A DNA stretch of 38,036 nt, taken from positions 1 through 38,036 of IMG/VR virus record IMGVR_UViG_3300042887_002225; one strand, written 5' to 3'. This document shows, piece by piece, positions 16,229 through 35,939 of this stretch. Source of the DNA: a virus. The notes beneath the pieces are model-generated. The model was given only the letters and a program-made list of their open reading frames with translations. It was not told the DNA's origin and made no database searches. Made by a program: the position numbers and the translations under genes. How positions within the stretch are numbered: the first letter of the stretch is position 1; the number at the start of each line of letters is the position of its first letter.

Positions 16229-16431
16229 AATATACTGCTACTGCTGTTATCAAATTTAGTATTGTTGCAACTGCAAGTATTAAAGATAAAATAAATGCAA
16301 CTGCAATCATAAAAACATTATCCCCTGTATCAACTCCTTGTCCGCAGTATAATTTGATTGATGGTGGACAACCACAAACGATATACATTGACATAAACGG
16401 ATTTAATTTAATAAACGGAGGACAACCATAA
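16225..16431 (+). CDS. Small repetitive beta-strand protein
   Basis: 68 residues. The first half alternates Ala/Thr/Ile/Lys with an 'ATAxIK' recurrence (TATAVIKFS, TASIKDK, ATAIIKT), so it would make amphipathic beta strands. The second half contains a duplicated motif LIDGGQPQ and LINGGQP. The next gene begins with the related PAIIKIKIRTG, and part of the DNA recurs there too (CTGCAATCATAAAAA at about 16299 and 16442). It may be a fibre-tip or adaptor peptide that arose by local duplication. Stop and next start overlap (TAATG). Unknown family. Confidence 0.55.
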   Translation: MKYTATAVIKFSIVATASIKDKINATAIIKTLSPVSTPCPQYNLIDGGQPQTIYIDINGFNLINGGQP

Positions 16432-18281
16432 TGAGCCAACCTGCAATCATAAAAATAAAAATCAGAACAGGAACATCAGCAGAATGGTTAGATGCAAATC
16501 CTGTTTTATTGGAAGGTGAATTTGGATTTATTAGTGATGATTTACAAGTTATCATTGGTGATGGAACAAATAGTTATTTAACATTAATAGATTCATTTCA
16601 TAGAGATAATCAATTAGCAACAATTCAATATGTCGAAACTGCAATCGGTGGTTTTTATACTGCATTAGGTAATGAAACAACGGCAAGAACAAATGCAGAT
16701 AATGATTTGCAAGATTTAATAGATGCAATAGAATTAGATATTACAAACATAGAAGGTAGTGTAAGTACATTGCAAAGTGATGTAAGTACTATTCAAGGTT
16801 TATTATCATTATTAGATTTAACTTTAACTGCAAAAGGTCAGATATTAGTATTAGATGGTGTAGAAGGAAAATATATTCCATTGCAAGTTGGCACAAATGG
16901 ACAAGTACTAACAGCTGATGATACAAATTCATTAGGGGTAAGTTGGACAGATATCCCAGCACAATCAATAGCACTTGATGATTTAACAGATGTAAATGCA
17001 CCGCTTCCAACAACAGGTGATGTATTGGCTTTTGATGGTGTAGAATGGACAAATTCTGCTCCTTCAACACCAACACCACTCGGATATTATGGAATGTGGC
17101 AAGATGGATTTACACAAACTGCTCCTTCAAGTAATGTAGGAGTTGCAATGATTTTTAGAACAACTGATTTATCAAATGGTGTTTCTGTTGTTACTGATGG
17201 CACTAACTTAACTCGTATCACTTTTGCTCATACAGGAATTTATAATCTTCAATTTAGTTCGCAGTTTCAGAATATAGGTAATGCACTTCACGATGTAACT
17301 ATTTGGTTGAGGTTAAACGGAAGTGATGTTACAGGTTCAGCAGGTTTTGTTTCTGTACCACAAAGGAAATCTGTATCTGATTATGGACATATAATTGTAA
17401 GTTGGAATTATTTGCTTGATGTAATTGGTGGTCAGTATTATGAAATAGTTTGGAGTACAACAAATCATACAGAGGTATCTATGCAGTATTACCCTGCTGG
17501 AAGTCCACCACCTTCAACCGCATCAACCATTGTAACAATCACTCAACAAAGTGGTATAATGGCAGGTACGGGAATGACTGCTTTAAATGGATTGAGTGGA
17601 GCAGTACAAACATTTGCAAGTAATAGTAGTGGAACTGATTTTAATATTGCATCAACAGGAACTACGCATACATTTAATCTTCCAACCGCATCTGCAACAA
17701 ATAGAGGTGCTTTATCATCTTCTGATTTTACTACATTCAATAATAAACTAACAGGATTTGCACAATTTAGAAAAGCAGGAAGGTGGTATAACAATGGATT
17801 ATTCCCACCTGCAAACGCTAACTTTACAAATCAATTAGCGATTAGGTATGTTCCACTTTTTATTGATGCTGATATTACAATTAGTAGAATAGGAATTAAT
17901 GTAAATACTATTGCACCTGCATCTTCTACTTGTAGAGTTGGGTTGTATTCAAACGATGCTACTACTTGTCAACCATTAAATAGATTAATTGATTTTGGTA
18001 CAATGGCAATTGATAGTACGGGTAGCAAAAGCATAACGGGATTATCATTATCATTAACAAAAGGACTGTATTGGTTTGCATATGTCGCAAGTGCAAATAG
18101 TGGTACTATTACAGGAATAGGAACAGGTGCGATATTTGATGTTAAAGGACAAGCAAACATAGGTCCTGTTGGATTTGCAGGTTTTAACCAAACTTTTACT
18201 TACGCTCCATTACCAGCATCAGCAGGTACTTTAACAGAAGTAAATAGCGGTGGAACAATTTGTATCTTTTATTATTATTAA
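16431..18281 (+). CDS. Tail fibre with Mtd-N-like head domain
   Basis: 616 residues. Residues about 6-47 (IKIRTGTSAEWLDANPVLLEGEFGF, then IGDGTNSY) match the short N-terminal domain found in Mtd and hyaluronidase-type fibre proteins ('R.gT.aeW...npvL..GE.g.e...'). Residues about 60-130 are a heptad-like coiled coil. A middle domain with DGVEGKYIPL / DDLTDVNAPLP elements follows, then a C-terminal beta-sandwich ending FYYY. Trimeric fibre architecture and host binding are inferred. It is the last large gene of the structural block. Confidence 0.75.
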   Translation: MSQPAIIKIKIRTGTSAEWLDANPVLLEGEFGFISDDLQVIIGDGTNSYLTLIDSFHRDNQLATIQYVETAIGGFYTALGNETTARTNADNDLQDLIDAIELDITNIEGSVSTLQSDVSTIQGLLSLLDLTLTAKGQILVLDGVEGKYIPLQVGTNGQVLTADDTNSLGVSWTDIPAQSIALDDLTDVNAPLPTTGDVLAFDGVEWTNSAPSTPTPLGYYGMWQDGFTQTAPSSNVGVAMIFRTTDLSNGVSVVTDGTNLTRITFAHTGIYNLQFSSQFQNIGNALHDVTIWLRLNGSDVTGSAGFVSVPQRKSVSDYGHIIVSWNYLLDVIGGQYYEIVWSTTNHTEVSMQYYPAGSPPPSTASTIVTITQQSGIMAGTGMTALNGLSGAVQTFASNSSGTDFNIASTGTTHTFNLPTASATNRGALSSSDFTTFNNKLTGFAQFRKAGRWYNNGLFPPANANFTNQLAIRYVPLFIDADITISRIGINVNTIAPASSTCRVGLYSNDATTCQPLNRLIDFGTMAIDSTGSKSITGLSLSLTKGLYWFAYVASANSGTITGIGTGAIFDVKGQANIGPVGFAGFNQTFTYAPLPASAGTLTEVNSGGTICIFYYY

Positions 18282-27084: not shown

Positions 27085-27295
27085 CATAACAGCAGTTGAT
27101 TGGTTAGTTGAGCAATTAAATAATGGAGATATGCCAACAAAGGAAGCAATTATACAAGCCAACATAATGTTTGAACAACAGATAGTTGAAGCATTTAATA
27201 GAGGAATGGTTAATAATGTTGATTGGTTTGGTGATGGTATAATCGAAGAAGCACAAGAATACTACAACGAAACATACGGAGGTAACAATGGATAA
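27077..27295 (+). CDS. Small acidic protein common in Bacteroidetes phages
   Basis: 72 residues from ATG 27077 (MDNITAVDWLVEQLNNGD). I prefer it to the frame from 26966, which would overlap the previous gene by 119 bases. The AVxWLVEQL start and following ANIMFEQQIVEAFNRG match a frequent small family in Bacteroidetes phages whose function is unknown. A G-rich AAGGGGGTAAC precedes the start, and the next gene overlaps by 8 bases, so all three genes here are coupled. Confidence 0.65.
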   Translation: MDNITAVDWLVEQLNNGDMPTKEAIIQANIMFEQQIVEAFNRGMVNNVDWFGDGIIEEAQEYYNETYGGNNG

Positions 27296-28112
27296 AAATA
27301 TCTTTGTTGCAATAAGCGGTGGTCGCTCTTCTGCTATGATGTCCTACCATATACATACATCTGACAAATACAAAGATTATAACAAAGTGTATTGTTTTGC
27401 TAATACAGGAATGGAAAGGATTGAAACAATTGATTTCTTAAAAAACATTGAGCGTACTTGGGGAATTGATATTGTTAAAATAGAAGGTGTATATAGCAAT
27501 GTAAAAGGAGTTGGAATTGGTTACAAGATTGTTGATTGGGATGAACTGAATATGACCGCTCAACCATTTGAGAACGCTATTATGCATATGACAAAAGGTA
27601 GTTTCGGTGGATTACCTAATACAAATGCTCCGTATTGCAGTTCAAGAATGAAAACATATCCATCAAAAAAATTTGCTGATGAAATATTCGGTATCAATAA
27701 TTATGTTATGGCTCTTGGATTTAGATATGAAGATATGCCTAAAAGAATATCTTGGGCTGAAATAAAAGTTGACACAAAAAGGATATTCCCTTTAATAACA
27801 GATTTTGAAAAACCTGTTACACAAAACGACTTGAACTTATTCTTTGATAAACAGCCGTTTAAACTTGGCATACATTCAAAATATGGTAATTGCGAATTAT
27901 GTTGGAAGAAGAGTAATAAAAACCTAATTGAAATTATTCAATACGGAACTCGCTTTATTGATTGGATGCAAAAAATTGAGGACAAGTACGGAGATACAAT
28001 GTATAGGGACAGGGTTACAATAAAAGATTTGGTAAGGATGGCAAGTTTACCTACAACAGCTGAAATAGATTTTGATGACAACGATGATTCGTGTGTATGT
28101 ACATTTCAATAA
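27288..28112 (+). CDS. PAPS reductase / adenine nucleotide alpha-hydrolase family protein
   Basis: 274 residues. The PP-loop SGGRSSA (residues 10-16) lies after the first strand (IFVAI), and CFANTGMERIETIDFL follows, both typical of the PAPS-reductase/DndC group of ATP-pyrophosphatases. Cys117 (PYCSSR), the pair Cys202/Cys205 (NCELCWK) and two Cys near the end (CVC) could bind an iron-sulfur cluster or zinc. Phage members are often linked to nucleobase or tRNA modification; sulfate reduction is unlikely here since partners are absent. Given the base-modification operon 1.4 kb downstream, a modification role is a reasonable inference, not shown. Confidence 0.75.
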   Translation: MDKNIFVAISGGRSSAMMSYHIHTSDKYKDYNKVYCFANTGMERIETIDFLKNIERTWGIDIVKIEGVYSNVKGVGIGYKIVDWDELNMTAQPFENAIMHMTKGSFGGLPNTNAPYCSSRMKTYPSKKFADEIFGINNYVMALGFRYEDMPKRISWAEIKVDTKRIFPLITDFEKPVTQNDLNLFFDKQPFKLGIHSKYGNCELCWKKSNKNLIEIIQYGTRFIDWMQKIEDKYGDTMYRDRVTIKDLVRMASLPTTAEIDFDDNDDSCVCTFQ

Positions 28113-29189: not shown

Positions 29190-29613
29190 GTATAAAGCAA
29201 AAAGGATTAACACCGCTGACGGCATCTTTGATAGCATAGGTGAGTTTAAACAATGGCAATTACTTGTACTTGCAATGACAGAAGAAGATGATAGCAAGAG
29301 AATAACAAATATTGAAAGACAGGTAACCTATAAGTTTGTAGTAAATAATATTCTTATTGGAAAATACATTGCTGATTTTGTTATTACATACGCTGATGGT
29401 AGAAAGGAAGTGCAAGATTTTAAGAATCCATATTTGATAGGCAAAGGAAAGTCAACACCAGCAGGAGCAATCTTTCAGTATAAAAAAAAGTTAATGAAAG
29501 CAGTACATAACATTGATATAAATATAATTACAAATGGCAAATCCAAAAACAACCAAAGTCAAAGTAGAAGAAGTAAAACTGAACCCAAACAATCCAAGAG
29601 TAATAAAGGATGA
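29182..29613 (+). CDS. DUF1064 family protein (nuclease-like, phage)
   Basis: 143 residues from ATG 29182 (an alternative TTG at 29173 is less likely). NKYKAKRINTADGIFDSIGEFKQW is the hallmark start of DUF1064, followed by IERQVTYKFV and KYIADFVITYADGRKEVQDFK, where ADF...E.K residues resemble a restriction-endonuclease/resolvase-like active site. The C-terminus is a Ser/Lys/Gln tail (NQSQSRRSKTEPKQSKSN) that overlaps the next gene by 80 bases in another frame. A Holliday-junction resolvase role has been suggested for this family. Confidence 0.8.
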   Translation: MNKYKAKRINTADGIFDSIGEFKQWQLLVLAMTEEDDSKRITNIERQVTYKFVVNNILIGKYIADFVITYADGRKEVQDFKNPYLIGKGKSTPAGAIFQYKKKLMKAVHNIDINIITNGKSKNNQSQSRRSKTEPKQSKSNKG

Positions 29614-30157
29614 TAAGTTCAAGAAACTTGTAAATAGTATTAAGAACTTTCCCGAGATGTTGCAACTACGACCGATAGTTGTAGATGAGAATATGATTAT
29701 TCTTGGAGGTAATATGCGGTATCGTGCCTGTATTGAAGCAGGTCTAAAAGAAGTTCATATCATAAAAGCTGATGGACTTACTGAAGACCAAAAGAAAGAG
29801 TTTGTAATTAAAGACAACAATAGTTTCGGGGAGTGGGATTGGGATGCTCTTGCTAATGAGTGGGACACAACTCTTTTAGATGATTGGGGAATGAACATTC
29901 CTAAAATTGAAGAGTTTGCAGGATTAGAACCAACAGGAGTACACGCTAAAAGTTTAACTGAAAAGTTAGATACATTTATAAATGCGAGTATAAAGCAGGT
30001 TGTTTTATTTTACGAATTAGATGAGTACGAAGAAGTATTAAAAAAGTTGAGCGTAGTATGTGAGCAGAACAAATTCGAAGATAACAGCGTAGCCGTAATG
30101 TACTTATTAAATAACTATCTGCAATCAAATGAAAGTAGCAATACCAACTTATCATAG
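29534..30157 (+). CDS. ParB/Srx-like nuclease-domain protein
   Basis: 207 residues. Residues about 8-75 are a ParB-N-like domain: VKLNPNNPRVIKDDKFKKLVNSI, then PIVVDENMIILGGNMRYRACIEAGL, which replaces the usual GxRR motif with GGNMRYRA. The rest (FVIKDNNSFGEWDWDALANEW) matches the extension typical of phage ParB-like proteins near DNA methylases and modification genes. Such proteins are thought to bind or act on DNA, and recent work links the fold to CTP-dependent switches and nucleases. It begins 80 bases inside DUF1064 and overlaps the glycosyltransferase gene by 29, a packed arrangement that argues for joint function. Confidence 0.85.
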   Translation: MANPKTTKVKVEEVKLNPNNPRVIKDDKFKKLVNSIKNFPEMLQLRPIVVDENMIILGGNMRYRACIEAGLKEVHIIKADGLTEDQKKEFVIKDNNSFGEWDWDALANEWDTTLLDDWGMNIPKIEEFAGLEPTGVHAKSLTEKLDTFINASIKQVVLFYELDEYEEVLKKLSVVCEQNKFEDNSVAVMYLLNNYLQSNESSNTNLS

Positions 30158-30848
30158 GCATACAACAATCAATAAACAGGCATTACACTTTGCTTGTAAT
30201 GAACTTTTAGTAAAGAACGAAGATATTTACCTGTTTGTAAGCAATATGGAAGAGTACTCAAAGTATGCTTCTGTTGTAAATAAAGGTATAAACATAGTTT
30301 GTGCTAATACTGAAAGTGCAAAAGACAAGTTTAACTACATACATCAATACTTCGAGAATGGTACAAGAGTGCTTTTAATTGAAGATGATGTAGCTGGGAT
30401 TATAACCATTATAGATAAGAAGCCAAAATCAATAATAGAAAGCGGTTTCAATTTGATGGAGAAGTGTAATAAAAAGATTTGGGGTGTATATCCATCAGCA
30501 AATAAACTATTTATGCAAACGAGTTCTTTAATTGGATTCGGATTTATTGTAGCAAACATATACGGATTTGTTGCCTGTGATGATAAAAGGTTATTAGTAA
30601 GTGAAGAATGCAAAACTGATTACGAGAGAAGTGTCCTGTATTCAATTTATGCCGATGGTGTTGTAAGGTTAAACTATGTATCTGCAAAAACAAAGAACTA
30701 CACCAACAAAGGCGGAATGCAGTTGTTACAGGACAGGGCAAAGTTAGAGGAACAATCGTGTAACAACCTTGTAACAAGATTTCCAAGTTATATTGGATTT
30801 AAGAACGGGACAAAAAGCATTTACAAAGAAATAAAACTACTACGATGA
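30129..30848 (+). CDS. TET-associated glycosyltransferase-like protein (TAGT-like)
   Basis: 239 residues. The start MKVAIPTYHR, a first Rossmann-like half, NKGINIVCANTESAKDKFNYI, then VLLIEDDVAGI with the acidic EDD (residues 85-87, metal/nucleotide-sugar binding) are the pattern of glycosyltransferases found beside TET/JBP dioxygenases in phages. GTR-type residues follow in SLIGFGFIVANIYGF. It should transfer a sugar or related group from a nucleotide donor onto an oxidised base in DNA. Downstream genes supply a dioxygenase and a possible donor-making enzyme. Base specificity cannot be read from sequence. Confidence 0.75.
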   Translation: MKVAIPTYHRHTTINKQALHFACNELLVKNEDIYLFVSNMEEYSKYASVVNKGINIVCANTESAKDKFNYIHQYFENGTRVLLIEDDVAGIITIIDKKPKSIIESGFNLMEKCNKKIWGVYPSANKLFMQTSSLIGFGFIVANIYGFVACDDKRLLVSEECKTDYERSVLYSIYADGVVRLNYVSAKTKNYTNKGGMQLLQDRAKLEEQSCNNLVTRFPSYIGFKNGTKSIYKEIKLLR

Positions 30849-32632
30849 ATGTATTGATACCTATGATGGGAGTAGGTAAAAGGTTTTTAGATGCTGGTTA
30901 CAATACAGACAAGCCGTTTATCAATATAAATGGTAAAATGGTTATTGAGAATGTAGCAGAACCGCTTTTAAAAAGATACGGACATATAAATATTGCTTGT
31001 AGAAAGGAACAGGCAGATGTACTAAAAAAAGTTTTTACAGCTGAACAACTTACTATTTATGTATTAAATGATAGCAAAGGAGCAGGAGATACAATACAAC
31101 AGGTGGTAAGGCACTTTGATGATAGAGCAATACTTTGTGTAGATTGCGACACAATACTAAATGATGTAGCAGTAAGCAAGATATCTAATAGTGGTAATAT
31201 GATAATGTCTTTTAAAGATAATGAAAGAACAGGATTATACAGCTATTTAACATTAGATGGAGAGCGTATTACATCAATAGTTGAAAAAGAAGCAATAAGC
31301 ACCATCGCAAATGCAGGTGTTTATTTATTTAACAGCAAATCAGTCATATTAGACAACTACCTTGAAAATGCTGATGGAGAATACTACCTTTCTAAAATAG
31401 TAATGAACGCTATCAAGGAAAATACATTTACAACAACAGACATATCAAACGAGTTTGATTGTGTAGGTACTCCATTCCAACTTCAAAACTATTGCAAAAA
31501 GTTAAGCATAAAAGATAAGGTGTTTTGTTTTGATATTGATAGAACTCTAATACACGACATACTTTTACAGCAAGAACCGATAAAGAGTAACATTGATTAT
31601 TGTAATTACCTTTACGATAATGGTGCTAAAATCATTTTATTCACCGCTCGGGGTATGCTATCGTATAATGGAAATATCCAGCAAATACAAGACAATTTAG
31701 TTCCTGTAATTGAAAAACTCCTTACAGATTATAACATAAAGCACCACGAATTGATTATTGGAAAGCCGTATGCGGATTATTACATTGATGATAAGTCAAT
31801 AAATGCTTTTAAAGACCTGCAAAAAGAAACAGGTGTTTATTATGCTTTGGACAATGAAGCACGACAGCACCACAAACTTACAATACAACAGGATATAGTT
31901 ATAAAAAGCGGAGATTTAAGGAACGAAAGGTTCTACTATGATACATTACCTGCTGAATTGCTCAATAAATACTTTGCAGGAGTTCGTTATGTATCTAATA
32001 AAGAGATAATACTTGACAGGATTAAGAAAGCAACATACTCAAACCTTTTACTTTGTGGTAAATTAACAGAAAAACATATTATTGACCTGCTTGAAGCATT
32101 GTACAACATTCATACTTATAGCTGTAATGTAGATAAACAACTTGATGTTGATTGGGGTTACAACACAAAACCACTTGACAGATATAACAATAATGTTGAA
32201 CTTTACAATAAATTAGGCATAAGCATAACGGATATAACCAACTTGACTAAAATAAAAGCTGATTCGGAATGTTCAATAATACAGGGCGATGCGGTATTTA
32301 CAAATGTATTTGATGGTGTTAAGTTTATAGACCCGAGGGGTAATTGGTGCGACAAACAATCTATATTTGGGGACAGGCATTATGATTACGCAAAAGTGTT
32401 ACAGAGTTTGTACGGATATGATTACGCATTAAAAGACATTGAGATAGAACAAAACTATTTATTGAACCTTCGTAATGTATTTTTTAGTTGGTACGCTGGG
32501 AATTATCCTACAAGAAGCACCGAAGAGTTGAAAAACTATACTAAATTGCTTATGTTATCAATGCTACCACTTCATTCCGAAGATATTGAAAGGTGCAAAA
32601 GGTTTATTAAAATAATAAAATCAATAATATGA
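30845..32632 (+). CDS. Three-domain fusion: sugar-phosphate-type nucleotidyltransferase, HAD phosphatase, APH/choline-kinase-like kinase
   Basis: 595 residues. Domain 1 (1-215): nucleotidyltransferase start NVLIPMMGVGKRFLDAGYNTDKPFI with Asp100/Asp102 in VDCD. Domain 2 (225-345): HAD-type with D230xD232 (FCFDIDRTLI), T267 (FTARG) and DYYIDDK (311-317). Domain 3 (about 350-595): aminoglycoside/choline-kinase-like with QGDAVFTN (480-487; His of the usual HGD is Gln) and IDPRG (495-499). Together they could phosphorylate, trim and activate a small alcohol or sugar to an NDP-linked donor. The neighbouring glycosyltransferase is a natural user. The donor is unknown. The fusion order is unusual in my experience. 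Confidence 0.8.
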   Translation: MNVLIPMMGVGKRFLDAGYNTDKPFININGKMVIENVAEPLLKRYGHINIACRKEQADVLKKVFTAEQLTIYVLNDSKGAGDTIQQVVRHFDDRAILCVDCDTILNDVAVSKISNSGNMIMSFKDNERTGLYSYLTLDGERITSIVEKEAISTIANAGVYLFNSKSVILDNYLENADGEYYLSKIVMNAIKENTFTTTDISNEFDCVGTPFQLQNYCKKLSIKDKVFCFDIDRTLIHDILLQQEPIKSNIDYCNYLYDNGAKIILFTARGMLSYNGNIQQIQDNLVPVIEKLLTDYNIKHHELIIGKPYADYYIDDKSINAFKDLQKETGVYYALDNEARQHHKLTIQQDIVIKSGDLRNERFYYDTLPAELLNKYFAGVRYVSNKEIILDRIKKATYSNLLLCGKLTEKHIIDLLEALYNIHTYSCNVDKQLDVDWGYNTKPLDRYNNNVELYNKLGISITDITNLTKIKADSECSIIQGDAVFTNVFDGVKFIDPRGNWCDKQSIFGDRHYDYAKVLQSLYGYDYALKDIEIEQNYLLNLRNVFFSWYAGNYPTRSTEELKNYTKLLMLSMLPLHSEDIERCKRFIKIIKSII

Positions 32633-33450
32633 GAGTTATAGATGTTAAAAAAAGAGATTTAAACTTAAAAGAGTATAAATCACGCTACGCAACTGAATCC
32701 GATGCTGAAATCCTTATTAAAGGAGATGCTTTATTGGTAGAAGATGGAAAACCTATTTTATTATACAAAGCAATTGATTGGATTGATACAGAAGATTTAA
32801 GAACCTGCTGTAAAACCATTAAATACAATACGGCTACAAGAATTGCAACCGCTGAAAAACACGGAATATCAACTACGAGTGCTATTTTTGGTTTTAGAGG
32901 TCGTAGTCCATTACGACAAGATTATTGTTCTGTTACACAAATGGCATCTACATCACCAAAAGAACATACAATCATTTGCAACTTTGCAAGTAACCTATCC
33001 GAGATATACAAAGAATACTTTCCCGAAACATACGCATACCACAACCAAAAGTCAAGCGAAGTATTAAGCGAGTGGAGAATACCAAACAGCGTATTTACAA
33101 GTGGAATTATAAATAAAGACAATGTACTACAATACCACCACGATAGCGGAAATATAAATGGTGCTTTGAGTAATATGGTTGCATTTAAGAACGGAGTAGC
33201 AGGTGGGATGCTTGTTCTACCCGAATACAACATCAAATTACAAATAGAAGATAACACCTTAACAATATTTGATGGAGCAGGCATCGTACATGGAGTAACA
33301 CCATTTAAGAAGTTTACTGATGATGCTTACAGATATACAATTGTTTACTATTCCCTGTCAAGAATGTGGAAGTGCGAAACAATAAAAGATGAAGTTAAAA
33401 GGATTAGAAAGGTAAAGAAGGCAAGAGAGATTAAAAGATTAGCAGATTGA
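32629..33450 (+). CDS. TET/JBP-type 2-oxoglutarate/Fe(II) dioxygenase
   Basis: 273 residues. The double-stranded beta-helix dioxygenase motif is complete: HxD at His170-x-Asp172 (YHHDSGN), distal His221 in GAGIVHGVTPF, and the 2OG-binding Arg235 in YRYTIVYYS. The intervening LSNMVAFKNGVAGGMLVLPEYNI and the N-terminal FGFRGRSPLRQDYC match phage TET/JBP-like enzymes. These oxidise a C5-methyl of 5-methylcytosine or, in JBP, thymine in DNA. No methyltransferase is in the window, so the substrate could be thymine or host 5mC. It overlaps the fusion gene by 4 bases and the HNH gene by 4. Confidence 0.8.
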   Translation: MRVIDVKKRDLNLKEYKSRYATESDAEILIKGDALLVEDGKPILLYKAIDWIDTEDLRTCCKTIKYNTATRIATAEKHGISTTSAIFGFRGRSPLRQDYCSVTQMASTSPKEHTIICNFASNLSEIYKEYFPETYAYHNQKSSEVLSEWRIPNSVFTSGIINKDNVLQYHHDSGNINGALSNMVAFKNGVAGGMLVLPEYNIKLQIEDNTLTIFDGAGIVHGVTPFKKFTDDAYRYTIVYYSLSRMWKCETIKDEVKRIRKVKKAREIKRLAD

Positions 33451-33710
33451 AGAAACATACAACATTGTATTTTAAAGCATTCGGATTTGATATAAGTGAT
33501 TTTATTCCCTGCGAAGTGTGTAACTCAAAAGCGGTGGATATACACCATATAAAGTCAAGAAAGATAGGTGGTAGCACCCAAAAAGACACAAAAGATAATT
33601 TAATGGCATTATGTAGAGAGTGCCATATAAAGTACGGAGATAAAAAACAATATGTTGATTTTCTTATTGAAAAGCACAAACAAATCTGTGATATAAGTGT
33701 GAATGATTAA
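33447..33710 (+). CDS. HNH endonuclease
   Basis: 87 residues from a TTG that overlaps the previous stop (TTGA); no better in-frame start lies before the zinc site. Motif residues: Cys22/Cys25 (CEVC), the HH pair His33/His34 (IHHIKSR), Asn51 (DNL) and Cys56/Cys59 plus His60 (CRECH). It is immediately upstream of the Gp88-like, small terminase and large terminase genes, where HNH enzymes frequently support packaging cleavage. It could also act as a homing or host-DNA-degrading nuclease that spares modified phage DNA. Confidence 0.85.
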   Translation: MKKHTTLYFKAFGFDISDFIPCEVCNSKAVDIHHIKSRKIGGSTQKDTKDNLMALCRECHIKYGDKKQYVDFLIEKHKQICDISVND

Positions 33711-33719
33711 TGTTATACT

Positions 33720-34400
33720 ATGCAACTACTAACTCAAAACAGCGACTTAAAAAAGACAGGAATTTACGGATGGACATTACCTGCTCACAATATAACACTA
33801 TCAAACGGAGCAAAGTTTAATACCTGTCCTAATGCAGGTGTATGCGGTGCATTTTGTTATGCAAAGAATGGTACATACAACTTCCCAGCTGTAAAGAAAG
33901 CACATTTACAAAAGTTAGAACTTGTACTATACTCTCCCGATGTATTTGAGTGTATGATGGTGGAGGAGTTAAAAAAGCCGAAGTACAATGGTAAGTACAT
34001 TCGCATACACGATGCAGGTGATTTCTTCTCATACGAATATGCTTTAATATGGTTACGCATAGCGGATAGATATCCAAACATTACATTCTATACATATACA
34101 AAAGAGGTGCTTTTATTTAAACATCAATTAGTAGGAAGAATACCTGCTAACTTTATTACAATTTATTCATTCGGTGGTAAGCAAGATTGTTATATAGATA
34201 GAGATACCGACAGGCATTCAGATGTATTTATGGATTACGAGCAAATGATAGCAGAAGGTTACAACGACATAGGCGAAGATGATAAGCAAAGTGCTATACA
34301 CCCAAATCACAAAGTAGGATTATTTAGGAATAACATTCCTGCTTACATTAAGAAAATGAAGCAAAGTAAATTTAGCGACTATGGCAAATCACAATCCTAA
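33720..34400 (+). CDS. Gp88-like phage protein with conserved Cys triad
   Basis: 226 residues. The pattern LLTQNSDLKKTGIYGWTLPAH, TCPNAGVCGAFCYAKNGTY (Cys36, Cys42, Cys46) and KYIRIHDAGDFFSYEYALIWLRIADRYPNITFYTYTKE fits the gene-product-88 family of phages. The Cys spacing hints at metal or iron-sulfur binding; function is not established. It lies between the base-modification/HNH genes and terminase and overlaps the small terminase by 20 bases, so it could belong to either group. Confidence 0.75.
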   Translation: MQLLTQNSDLKKTGIYGWTLPAHNITLSNGAKFNTCPNAGVCGAFCYAKNGTYNFPAVKKAHLQKLELVLYSPDVFECMMVEELKKPKYNGKYIRIHDAGDFFSYEYALIWLRIADRYPNITFYTYTKEVLLFKHQLVGRIPANFITIYSFGGKQDCYIDRDTDRHSDVFMDYEQMIAEGYNDIGEDDKQSAIHPNHKVGLFRNNIPAYIKKMKQSKFSDYGKSQS

Positions 34401-34776
34401 ACAGAGCAACTTGAAACCATTTAAGAAAGGTCAAGATGAGAGAAGGCATTTAACAGGCAGACCAAGAGCATACATATCAACTCTAAAAGATAATGGTTAT
34501 AAGTTATCGGAGGTAAATGATTGTATACAGGTGCTTATGTCAATGACTTTAGATGAACTGAAACAGGTGTACGATAACCCAGCATCAACCATTCTTGAAA
34601 AGACAATAGCAAATTCGATGTTTACTTCATTAAAGAAAGGAAGTTTGTATTCAATAGAAAGTTTATTGAGTAGGGTATTTGGAACACCAAAGCAAACAAG
34701 TGATGTTTCAATGCAGATGCAATTTAAGGTGGAAGCACCAAACGAGCATACAAAGAACTTAATTGATAATCTGTGA
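34381..34776 (+). CDS. terS: Terminase small subunit
   Basis: 131 residues. N-terminal basic segment (PFKKGQDERRHLTGRP) is characteristic of Bacteroidetes phage small terminases; helical body (LSEVNDCIQVLMSMTLDELKQVYDN) and a C-terminal segment with SLLSRVFGTPKQ, all common in small terminases. It would recognise the packaging site and stimulate the large subunit that follows immediately (overlap of 4 bases). Confidence 0.75.
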   Translation: MANHNPKQSNLKPFKKGQDERRHLTGRPRAYISTLKDNGYKLSEVNDCIQVLMSMTLDELKQVYDNPASTILEKTIANSMFTSLKKGSLYSIESLLSRVFGTPKQTSDVSMQMQFKVEAPNEHTKNLIDNL

Positions 34777-35939
34777 AACTTACTAATGTATTTACTAAAA
34801 ACATTGAAGCGTACTCTAATGGTTACAGGTACATAATCAATCAAGGTGGAACGAGTAGTAGTAAAACCTATTCCGTATTACAATTACTTATACTGATTGC
34901 GATGCGTAAGGACAACCTGCTTATATCAATAGTTGCTGAAAGTTTACCGCATCTTAAAAGAGGTGCTTTAAGGGATTTTATCAAGATACTTGAACAGGAA
35001 GGTATTTATTCAGATGATATGCACAACAGGAGTAGTAATAGTTTCCAAGTTGGTAAAAGCACAATAGAGTTCTTTTCAGCTGATGAAAGTAGTAAGTTAC
35101 GAGGAGCAAGAAGGGATATTCTATTTATTAATGAGTGTAACAACATTGATAAAAGAGCGTTTGATGAATTAAGTGTCCGAACCAAGCAAACTACATTCCT
35201 TGACTTTAATCCTGTATCAGAATTTTGGGTACACGAAATGATTGAAACAAGGCAGGAAATATCATTTATAAAAAGCACCTACAAAGACAACAATTATTTA
35301 GATGCCAACATTGTAAAAGAGATTGAGAGCAGAAGATATACAGACCCGTATTGGTGGAAAGTATTTGGAGAAGGAGAGATTGGTGTATTAGATGGTGTTG
35401 TATTTAGTAATTGGAAAGTAGTGGATGAAGTACCACAATCACCAAAGAAGGTTTTAGGACTTGACTTTGGTTACACCAACGACCCGACAAGTATTATAGA
35501 AGTTACGTACTCTGATGGTGAAATTTACTTACACGAAGCGGTGTACCAAACACAACTTACAAATCAAATGATTGCTAAATTAATAATGCAAGATGAAACA
35601 TTAAAGACAAACATTGTAGTTTGTGATAGTGCCGAACCAAAGAGTATAGATGAATTGCGTTTAGCAGGTGTTCGTAGTATCCCAGCAGATAAAGGAGCCG
35701 ATAGTATTCGTAATGGCATTGACCTTATGAAGCAATACAAGATAAACATAACAAAGAGTTCGGTAAACCTTATTAAAGAGTTTAGAAATTACAGGTGGAA
35801 ACAGGATAGAGATGGAAAGAGTTTAAATGTTCCGATTGATATTTTTAATCACGGAATTGATGCTACAAGATATGCCGTTACATACCTGCTTGGAAGCCAA
35901 AATAAATTTATTAAACCTAAAATTCATATTCCAAAATAA
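34773..35939 (+). CDS. terL: Terminase large subunit (Terminase_3-like)
   Basis: 388 residues from a GTG overlapping the small-subunit stop. ATPase: Walker A-like GGTSSSKTYS (25-34) and Walker B DILFINECNN (about 112-121). Nuclease: LGLDFGYTNDPTS (first Asp), VVCDSAEPKSIDEL (second), and HGIDATRYAVTYL near the end (third). This is the PBSX/SPP1-type order. It cuts and pumps the phage DNA into the prohead. Slightly short for the family but all motifs present. A promoter and a new unit follow at 35942. Confidence 0.93.
   Translation: MKLTNVFTKNIEAYSNGYRYIINQGGTSSSKTYSVLQLLILIAMRKDNLLISIVAESLPHLKRGALRDFIKILEQEGIYSDDMHNRSSNSFQVGKSTIEFFSADESSKLRGARRDILFINECNNIDKRAFDELSVRTKQTTFLDFNPVSEFWVHEMIETRQEISFIKSTYKDNNYLDANIVKEIESRRYTDPYWWKVFGEGEIGVLDGVVFSNWKVVDEVPQSPKKVLGLDFGYTNDPTSIIEVTYSDGEIYLHEAVYQTQLTNQMIAKLIMQDETLKTNIVVCDSAEPKSIDELRLAGVRSIPADKGADSIRNGIDLMKQYKINITKSSVNLIKEFRNYRWKQDRDGKSLNVPIDIFNHGIDATRYAVTYLLGSQNKFIKPKIHIPK

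Follow-up and report, generated by a model that had tools for sequence, protein, structure and literature searches.

When a bacteriophage encodes a dioxygenase of the TET/JBP family close to a glycosyltransferase, does it decorate its own DNA and, if so, which base is decorated and with what? This question is raised by four genes of an uncultured phage whose DNA, IMG/VR record IMGVR_UViG_3300042887_002225 (38,036 nt), is referred to here as the window. The genes are predicted to encode, in order, a ParB-like protein, a TET-associated glycosyltransferase (TAGT), a fusion of nucleotidyltransferase, HAD phosphatase, and kinase domains, and the dioxygenase (TET). Judging from sequence, we think that this operon probably attaches a sugar to thymine in the DNA of the phage after replication, using a sugar donor that the phage itself makes.

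The operon encodes a predicted TET/JBP dioxygenase

A preliminary description of this DNA had claimed four genes that overlap by 4 to 29 bases. The open reading frame (ORF) calls agree, with overlaps of 29 bases between the ParB-like and TAGT genes, 4 between the TAGT and fusion genes, and 4 between the fusion and TET genes, and the operon is real. The same description placed an HxD...H...R motif in the last product. These positions are correct, and His170-x-Asp172, His221, and Arg235 are invariant across 46 dioxygenase relatives. The protein scores 47.7 bits against PF12851 (Tet_JBP; cut-off 34.9). Its AlphaFold (AF2) model, with a predicted local distance difference test score (pLDDT) of 92.1, forms a double-stranded beta-helix, and the 26 best matches to this model in the PDB are all TET-family proteins (CcTet, E-value 4.5e-13; NgTet1, 5.7e-12; human TET2, 8e-11; CMD1, 8e-11). 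AlkB and FTO come after these matches, with E-values more than ten times as high. Structure comparison was needed here since the sequence profile gave only a marginal match in the PDB, to CMD1 (0.027). The predicted structure places the protein inside the TET/JBP family, not outside it. We conclude that, as judged from its sequence and modelled fold, the protein is a 2-oxoglutarate/Fe(II) dioxygenase of this family. The PHROG label for the TET family, queuine tRNA-ribosyltransferase, is contradicted by the fold and was rejected. Public phage records often annotate TET/JBP genes under this name, or as DpdA-like or SNF2 DNA repair proteins (for example, NC_023701.1 gp2 and MG450654.1 gp8).

The first product was recognized as ParB-like, as had been proposed. 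It scores 31.9 bits against PF02195 (ParB_N, ParB-CTPase fold; cut-off 26.3), matches phrog_620 at 1.5e-28, and contains a conserved G-G-N-M-R motif at residues 58-62. The earlier statement that phage TET/JBP genes pair with glycosyltransferase and ParB-like genes is borne out by a ParB-TAGT-TET block that is conserved in 81 viral loci. These are the window and the best 80 of the 469 encoding stretches found by a TET alignment search of viral contigs; several loci are near-identical, so the counts are not independent. As many as 80 further viral contigs have the same block, and chance occurrence is ruled out. ParB was found at 74 of the 81 loci, nearly always immediately upstream. The loci also contain 65 genes of the TAGT cluster and 68 of a large-terminase cluster near the TET gene, the latter mostly two genes downstream. 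The slot beside the TET gene holds a TAGT alone at 61 loci, a GT-B-like enzyme alone at eight, both at two, a kinase with or without ADDT at five, and the fusion at three (the window, L002, and L034). Two loci fell into no class, and the slot of one of them, L107, holds an ADDT (71.7 bits).

The glycosyltransferase and the fusion are a putative matched pair

The acidic EDD motif ascribed to the glycosyltransferase was found at E85-D86-D87. In 67 TAGTs, D86 never varies and D87 is kept in 91%; D164 is also invariant. The protein's own score against PF20691 is 17.7, under the cut-off of 27.5. It matches phrog_25200 (2.9e-21) and, by tblastn, gp3 of Mycobacterium phage Acadian (2e-16), which scores 131 bits to PF20691, and it clusters with the TAGT of locus L003, which passes PF20691 at 28.7. 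By transitive homology only, we assign it to the TAGTs (GT-A type), in keeping with the preliminary description. A search of viral contigs with this single sequence confirmed no relatives, and these were reached via TET.

Besides the window, L034 is the one fusion locus with a full TAGT, and the two TAGTs share 54% identity. All other TAGTs reach at most 32% identity to that of the window. These include the TAGT of L033, a locus whose TET is 67% identical to that of the window. At fusion locus L002, a 32-residue TAGT tail closely resembles that of the window. The three fusion loci appear to have a TAGT subfamily that was found at no other locus. ParB does not track the fusion, the window ParB being 40% identical to that of L034 and 51% identical to that of L033. 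The simplest reading is that the transferase and the donor enzyme would form a matched pair.

The fusion itself had been correctly read as nucleotidyltransferase, HAD, and kinase. Its nucleotidyltransferase domain passes PF00483 (NTP_transferase; 27.0 bits, cut-off 21.2), contains the motifs GxGxR (residues 9-13), K23, D100/D102, and E147-K148, and matches the PDB profiles of 4evw (1.5e-16) and 5xhw/6jq8 (about 5e-14). The HAD domain has the motifs D230/D232/T234, T267, K307, and D315/D316. It matches 1xpj (2e-18) and 9iqw (5.8e-15) in the PDB and scores 43 bits against TIGR01689, under the cut-off of 162. Phage homologues are a 128-residue HAD protein of Mosigvirus (4e-12), the sequence of which appears to be that of 9iqw, and gp10 of S-CBWM1 (9e-14). 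The PHROG label of phosphoheptose isomerase for this domain was rejected on the basis of the HAD motifs and the 9iqw match. The kinase domain contains (Q/H)480-G-D482...N487...D496, matches phrog_24015 (1.1e-14), and is homologous to the second half of RB69-type ORF53_52c homologues (4e-11; HHalign probability 99%, E 2e-18). The nucleotidyltransferase domain aligns more weakly with its RB69-type counterpart (HHalign probability 67%). The catalytic residues of all three domains are invariant in 6 relatives.

Together, a kinase, a phosphatase, and a nucleotidyltransferase provide the activities required for converting a terminal sugar phosphate to a nucleotide sugar, of which the GDP-heptose route is an example. 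The fusion appears to unite in one polypeptide what RB69-type phages split over two genes. Searching genome contigs with the fusion alignment gave 6 loci, one of which, L020, encodes a full-length relative with neighbours that do not name the sugar. Nucleotidyltransferase-HAD proteins of the type found in L004 are a likely source family for the fusion. The L004 protein (L004:8001-9023) has no kinase domain, is 54% identical to the window fusion, and is encoded among many phage glycosyltransferases.

A proposed route to a glycosylated base

We propose that TET would hydroxylate the methyl group of thymine in DNA to give 5-hydroxymethyluracil (5hmU). In the fusion, the kinase domain would phosphorylate a sugar phosphate at C1, the HAD domain would take off the sugar's other phosphate, and the nucleotidyltransferase domain would couple the resulting sugar-1-phosphate to a nucleotide, giving an activated sugar. 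The TAGT would then transfer this sugar to the hydroxyl of 5hmU, forming a base-J-like glycosyl-5hmU that would block host nucleases. The ParB-like protein would probably site the machinery on DNA and couple it, beside the terminase, to replication or packaging; the proximity of ParB and terminase suggests a link to packaging or late replication. The thymine substrate, the order of the reactions, the sugar, the role of ParB, and the protection from nucleases are all things that we infer. A testable prediction follows, namely that bacterial viruses have a base-J-like modification.

The chances seem about even that virion DNA carries 5hmU with an unusual sugar (a pentose, a heptose, or another) and that the donor comes from a fusion that co-evolved with its own TAGT subfamily. 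A narrower version of this proposal, in which RB69-type phages are the model and the donor is an activated pentose (arabinose), is tentative and on balance doubtful. Homologues of the HAD and C-terminal domains occur in the arabinose modules of Mosigvirus and of Acinetobacter phage Acj9. RB69 ORF53_52c is a candidate for arabinose donor synthesis (PMC6024577), and RB69-type DNA bears 5-arabinosyl-deoxycytidine (PMC13390438). However, the SIS isomerase of both Mosigvirus and Acj9 was not found in the window genome, the nearest solved nucleotidyltransferases include heptose-pathway enzymes, and the Mosigvirus pathway is itself uncharacterised (PMC13390438).

Thymine is favoured over cytosine as the substrate

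The preliminary description did not settle on a base or on a decoration. The evidence favours thymine over cytosine as the putative substrate and a sugar over an alcohol as the decoration. The ends of the contig (positions 1-299 and 37738-38036) match at 296 of 299 bases. Because of this 299-bp terminal overlap, the genome is probably complete (circularly permuted or an overlapping assembly) and belongs to a phage of about 37.7 kb; therefore, gene absences carry weight. The overlap contains three variable sites and the record itself is classed as linear. We found no C5 DNA methyltransferase (PF00145), no member of the thymidylate synthase superfamily (PF00303, a hydroxymethylase source), and no SIS sugar isomerase (PF01380) in the window genome, using searches with controls that were detected in most reference genomes. 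The 5hmU DNA kinase family (PF18751) was likewise not found there, its control being detected in one reference genome only. With no methyltransferase, thymidylate synthase, or PF18751 enzyme, TET itself must supply the oxidised methyl, from either thymine or 5-methylcytosine (5mC) made by the host.

Thymine is the likeliest of these because the TAGT slot in relatives is repeatedly swapped for thymine-hypermodification enzymes. ADDT (82-92 bits) and PF18751 (70-199 bits) enzymes are encoded beside the TETs of Tonitrus, MossRose, MO526, Ottawa, and Terij, and both enzymes are said by Lee et al. to act on 5hmU. Tonitrus has been described as a thymidine hypermodification system (PMC11955845). Among uncultured phages, six loci (L074, L078, L079, L082, L087, and L107) encode TETs close to that of the window and have an ADDT, a flavin adenine dinucleotide (FAD) oxidoreductase, or a P-loop kinase in the slot; L078 has all three, its ADDT scoring 35.1 bits. 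These six are candidate TET-initiated thymine hypermodification systems.

The same enzymes could instead act on cytosine, with TET oxidising host-made 5mC and the TAGT glycosylating 5-hydroxymethylcytosine (5hmC). Solved TET relatives among the fold matches were crystallised with DNA containing 5mC or N6-methyladenine, Melnitz has a TET paired with an HhaI-type methyltransferase, and the TAGT (PF20691) of T6 puts glucose on already glucosylated 5hmC (PMC13216743). However, neither the window genome nor any of 36 additional IMG/VR contigs with this TET family yielded a C5-methyltransferase in a search that, as a positive control, found the Melnitz enzyme beside its TET at 2e-56. In a TET tree, the clade of the window contains TETs paired with a TAGT and, scattered among them, TETs paired with a kinase or ADDT, the thymine-type partners, but not the Melnitz TET; this quick tree has long branches and was used only for the broad clade split. 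We consider the cytosine route improbable. By context, phage TETs divide into two settings, one with thymine-type partners and no C5-methyltransferase, and the Melnitz type with one.

Other readings of the operon and points against ours

It is very unlikely that the TAGT and the fusion build a surface or virion glycan and that TET acts separately. The HAD and nucleotidyltransferase domains resemble capsule enzymes, and the fusion relatives at L004-L006 and L020 lie among many glycosyltransferases or other polysaccharide genes. Yet in the window the TAGT, fusion, and TET genes are joined by 4-base overlaps, at most of the 81 loci the TAGT slot has ParB on one side and TET on the other, and S-CBWM1 has the same complement in one row. 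We give hardly any credence to TET being a regulatory demethylase or an RNA oxygenase and not an agent of genome-wide hypermodification, since TET is repeatedly paired with transferases for which a hydroxymethyl base is the starting point, even though TET/JBP enzymes elsewhere regulate genomes and the ParB-like partner could direct TET to a few sites.

Several points weigh against a phage-made sugar on thymine. The fusion relatives just named, from phages and bacteria, occur in apparent surface-glycan clusters, and for this reason homology of the fusion does not fix its product. The fusion is present at only three of the 81 TET loci and therefore the core works without it. The kinase is assigned mainly from its catalytic-loop motif, with S-CBWM1 gp12, which passes PF01636, as a further ground. 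In HHalign, the C-terminal domain aligns weakly with ordinary APH kinases, the catalytic loop alone being aligned, and the window protein has Gln480 where its relatives have His. The AF2 model of the fusion, made from 4 sequences, had a pLDDT of 55 and was discarded as unusable. Host 5mC is a possible TET substrate, and the presence of a modified base in virion DNA is something we infer from genes.

Neighbouring genes

The operon is followed by genes for an HNH endonuclease, a GP88-family protein, and the terminase (Table 1). The HNH endonuclease possibly belongs to the operon. HNH genes were found near ParB-TET at 32 of the 81 loci, where the usual place is upstream of ParB, unlike in the window.

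Table 1. Features of the operon and of the genes that follow it, in window coordinates.
Feature	Position	Strand	Details
ParB-like	29534-30157	+	207-residue ORF
TAGT-like glycosyltransferase	30129-30848	+	239-residue ORF
Nucleotidyltransferase-HAD-kinase fusion	30845-32632	+	595-residue ORF
Predicted sugar-1-phosphate nucleotidyltransferase domain	30845-31498	+	residues 1-218; PF00483
Predicted HAD phosphatase domain, EcbF/BcbF-like	31508-31846	+	residues 222-334
APH/choline-kinase-like domain	31847-32629	+	residues 335-595
TET/JBP dioxygenase	32629-33450	+	273-residue ORF
HNH endonuclease	33447-33710	+	PF01844, 38.1 bits; 4-base overlap with TET gene
GP88-family gene	33720-34400		PF17338, 154.6 bits; between HNH and terminase genes
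Small-terminase-like gene	34381-34776	+	
Large terminase	34773-35939	+	TIGR01547, 122 bits

Elsewhere in the window, the early region contains a PAPS-reductase-like gene (27288-28112; phrog_424, 1.5e-37), and a tail protein with a major-tropism-determinant N-terminal domain is encoded at 16431-18281 (PF18454, 40.7 bits). Among the genes scanned, we noticed no reverse transcriptase.

Comparison with known systems

The survey of loci suggests that the ParB-TET-terminase block is a modular platform with a swappable base-finishing enzyme, which may be a glycosyltransferase, a kinase with an amino acid transferase, or a glycosyltransferase with its donor factory. The operon would provide a small enzyme set for making sugar-decorated DNA. 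Blocks of the ParB-TET-TAGT-terminase kind were reportedly described computationally by Iyer et al. in 2013, and those of actinobacteriophages such as Acadian (gp1-gp6) resemble the window in having adjacent genes for a ParB-like protein, a TET/JBP enzyme, and a TAGT near the terminase. Unlike Acadian, the window has its genes arranged as ParB-TAGT-fusion-TET, with a fusion of its own for donor synthesis, and the two TAGTs are only 27% identical. In place of the fusion, Acadian has a PIG-L deacetylase gene. The product of this gene, gp4 (L017:2438-3022), adjoins the TAGT and scores 42 bits as a PIG-L type deacetylase; Acadian might put an N-acetylated hexosamine on its DNA and deacetylate it afterwards.

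Synechococcus cyanophage S-CBWM1 is similar in encoding TET, TAGT, HAD, nucleotidyltransferase, and APH kinase consecutively (gp8-gp12), which independently supports a role of the fusion in donor synthesis. In contrast to the window, these are five separate genes, and its TET is part of a longer protein from another clade. By blastp, its HAD is clearly homologous to that of the window, its kinase is marginal, and its nucleotidyltransferase has no detectable match. RB69-type Mosigvirus and Acj9 share with the window a nucleotidyltransferase-kinase fusion and a HAD phosphatase that serve a DNA glycosyltransferase. However, their HAD is separate, a SIS isomerase is present, and a hydroxylase of the thymidylate synthase family, not found in the window genome, acts on the precursor base. 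In RB69-type phages, the sugar is accepted not by a TET product but by 5-hydroxycytosine that is formed ahead of replication (PMC13390438).

Near its terminase, Rhodococcus phage Tonitrus encodes, like the window, a ParB-like protein and a TET, the two TETs being from one clade. It uses a 5hmU-type kinase and ADDT/aGPT-PPlase; the window, in which no such kinase was found, relies on a glycosyltransferase instead. In kinetoplastids, base J is made by JBP1/2, which oxidise thymine in DNA, and a glucosyltransferase, which then glycosylates it. We expect this logic to be common to the window, which differs in being a bacteriophage with an unrelated transferase and in having a phage-made donor in place of host UDP-glucose. 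The ParB-TET-TAGT core was already known. New here are the fusion, the pairing of this fusion with a single TAGT subfamily, and the argument for thymine from genomic context.

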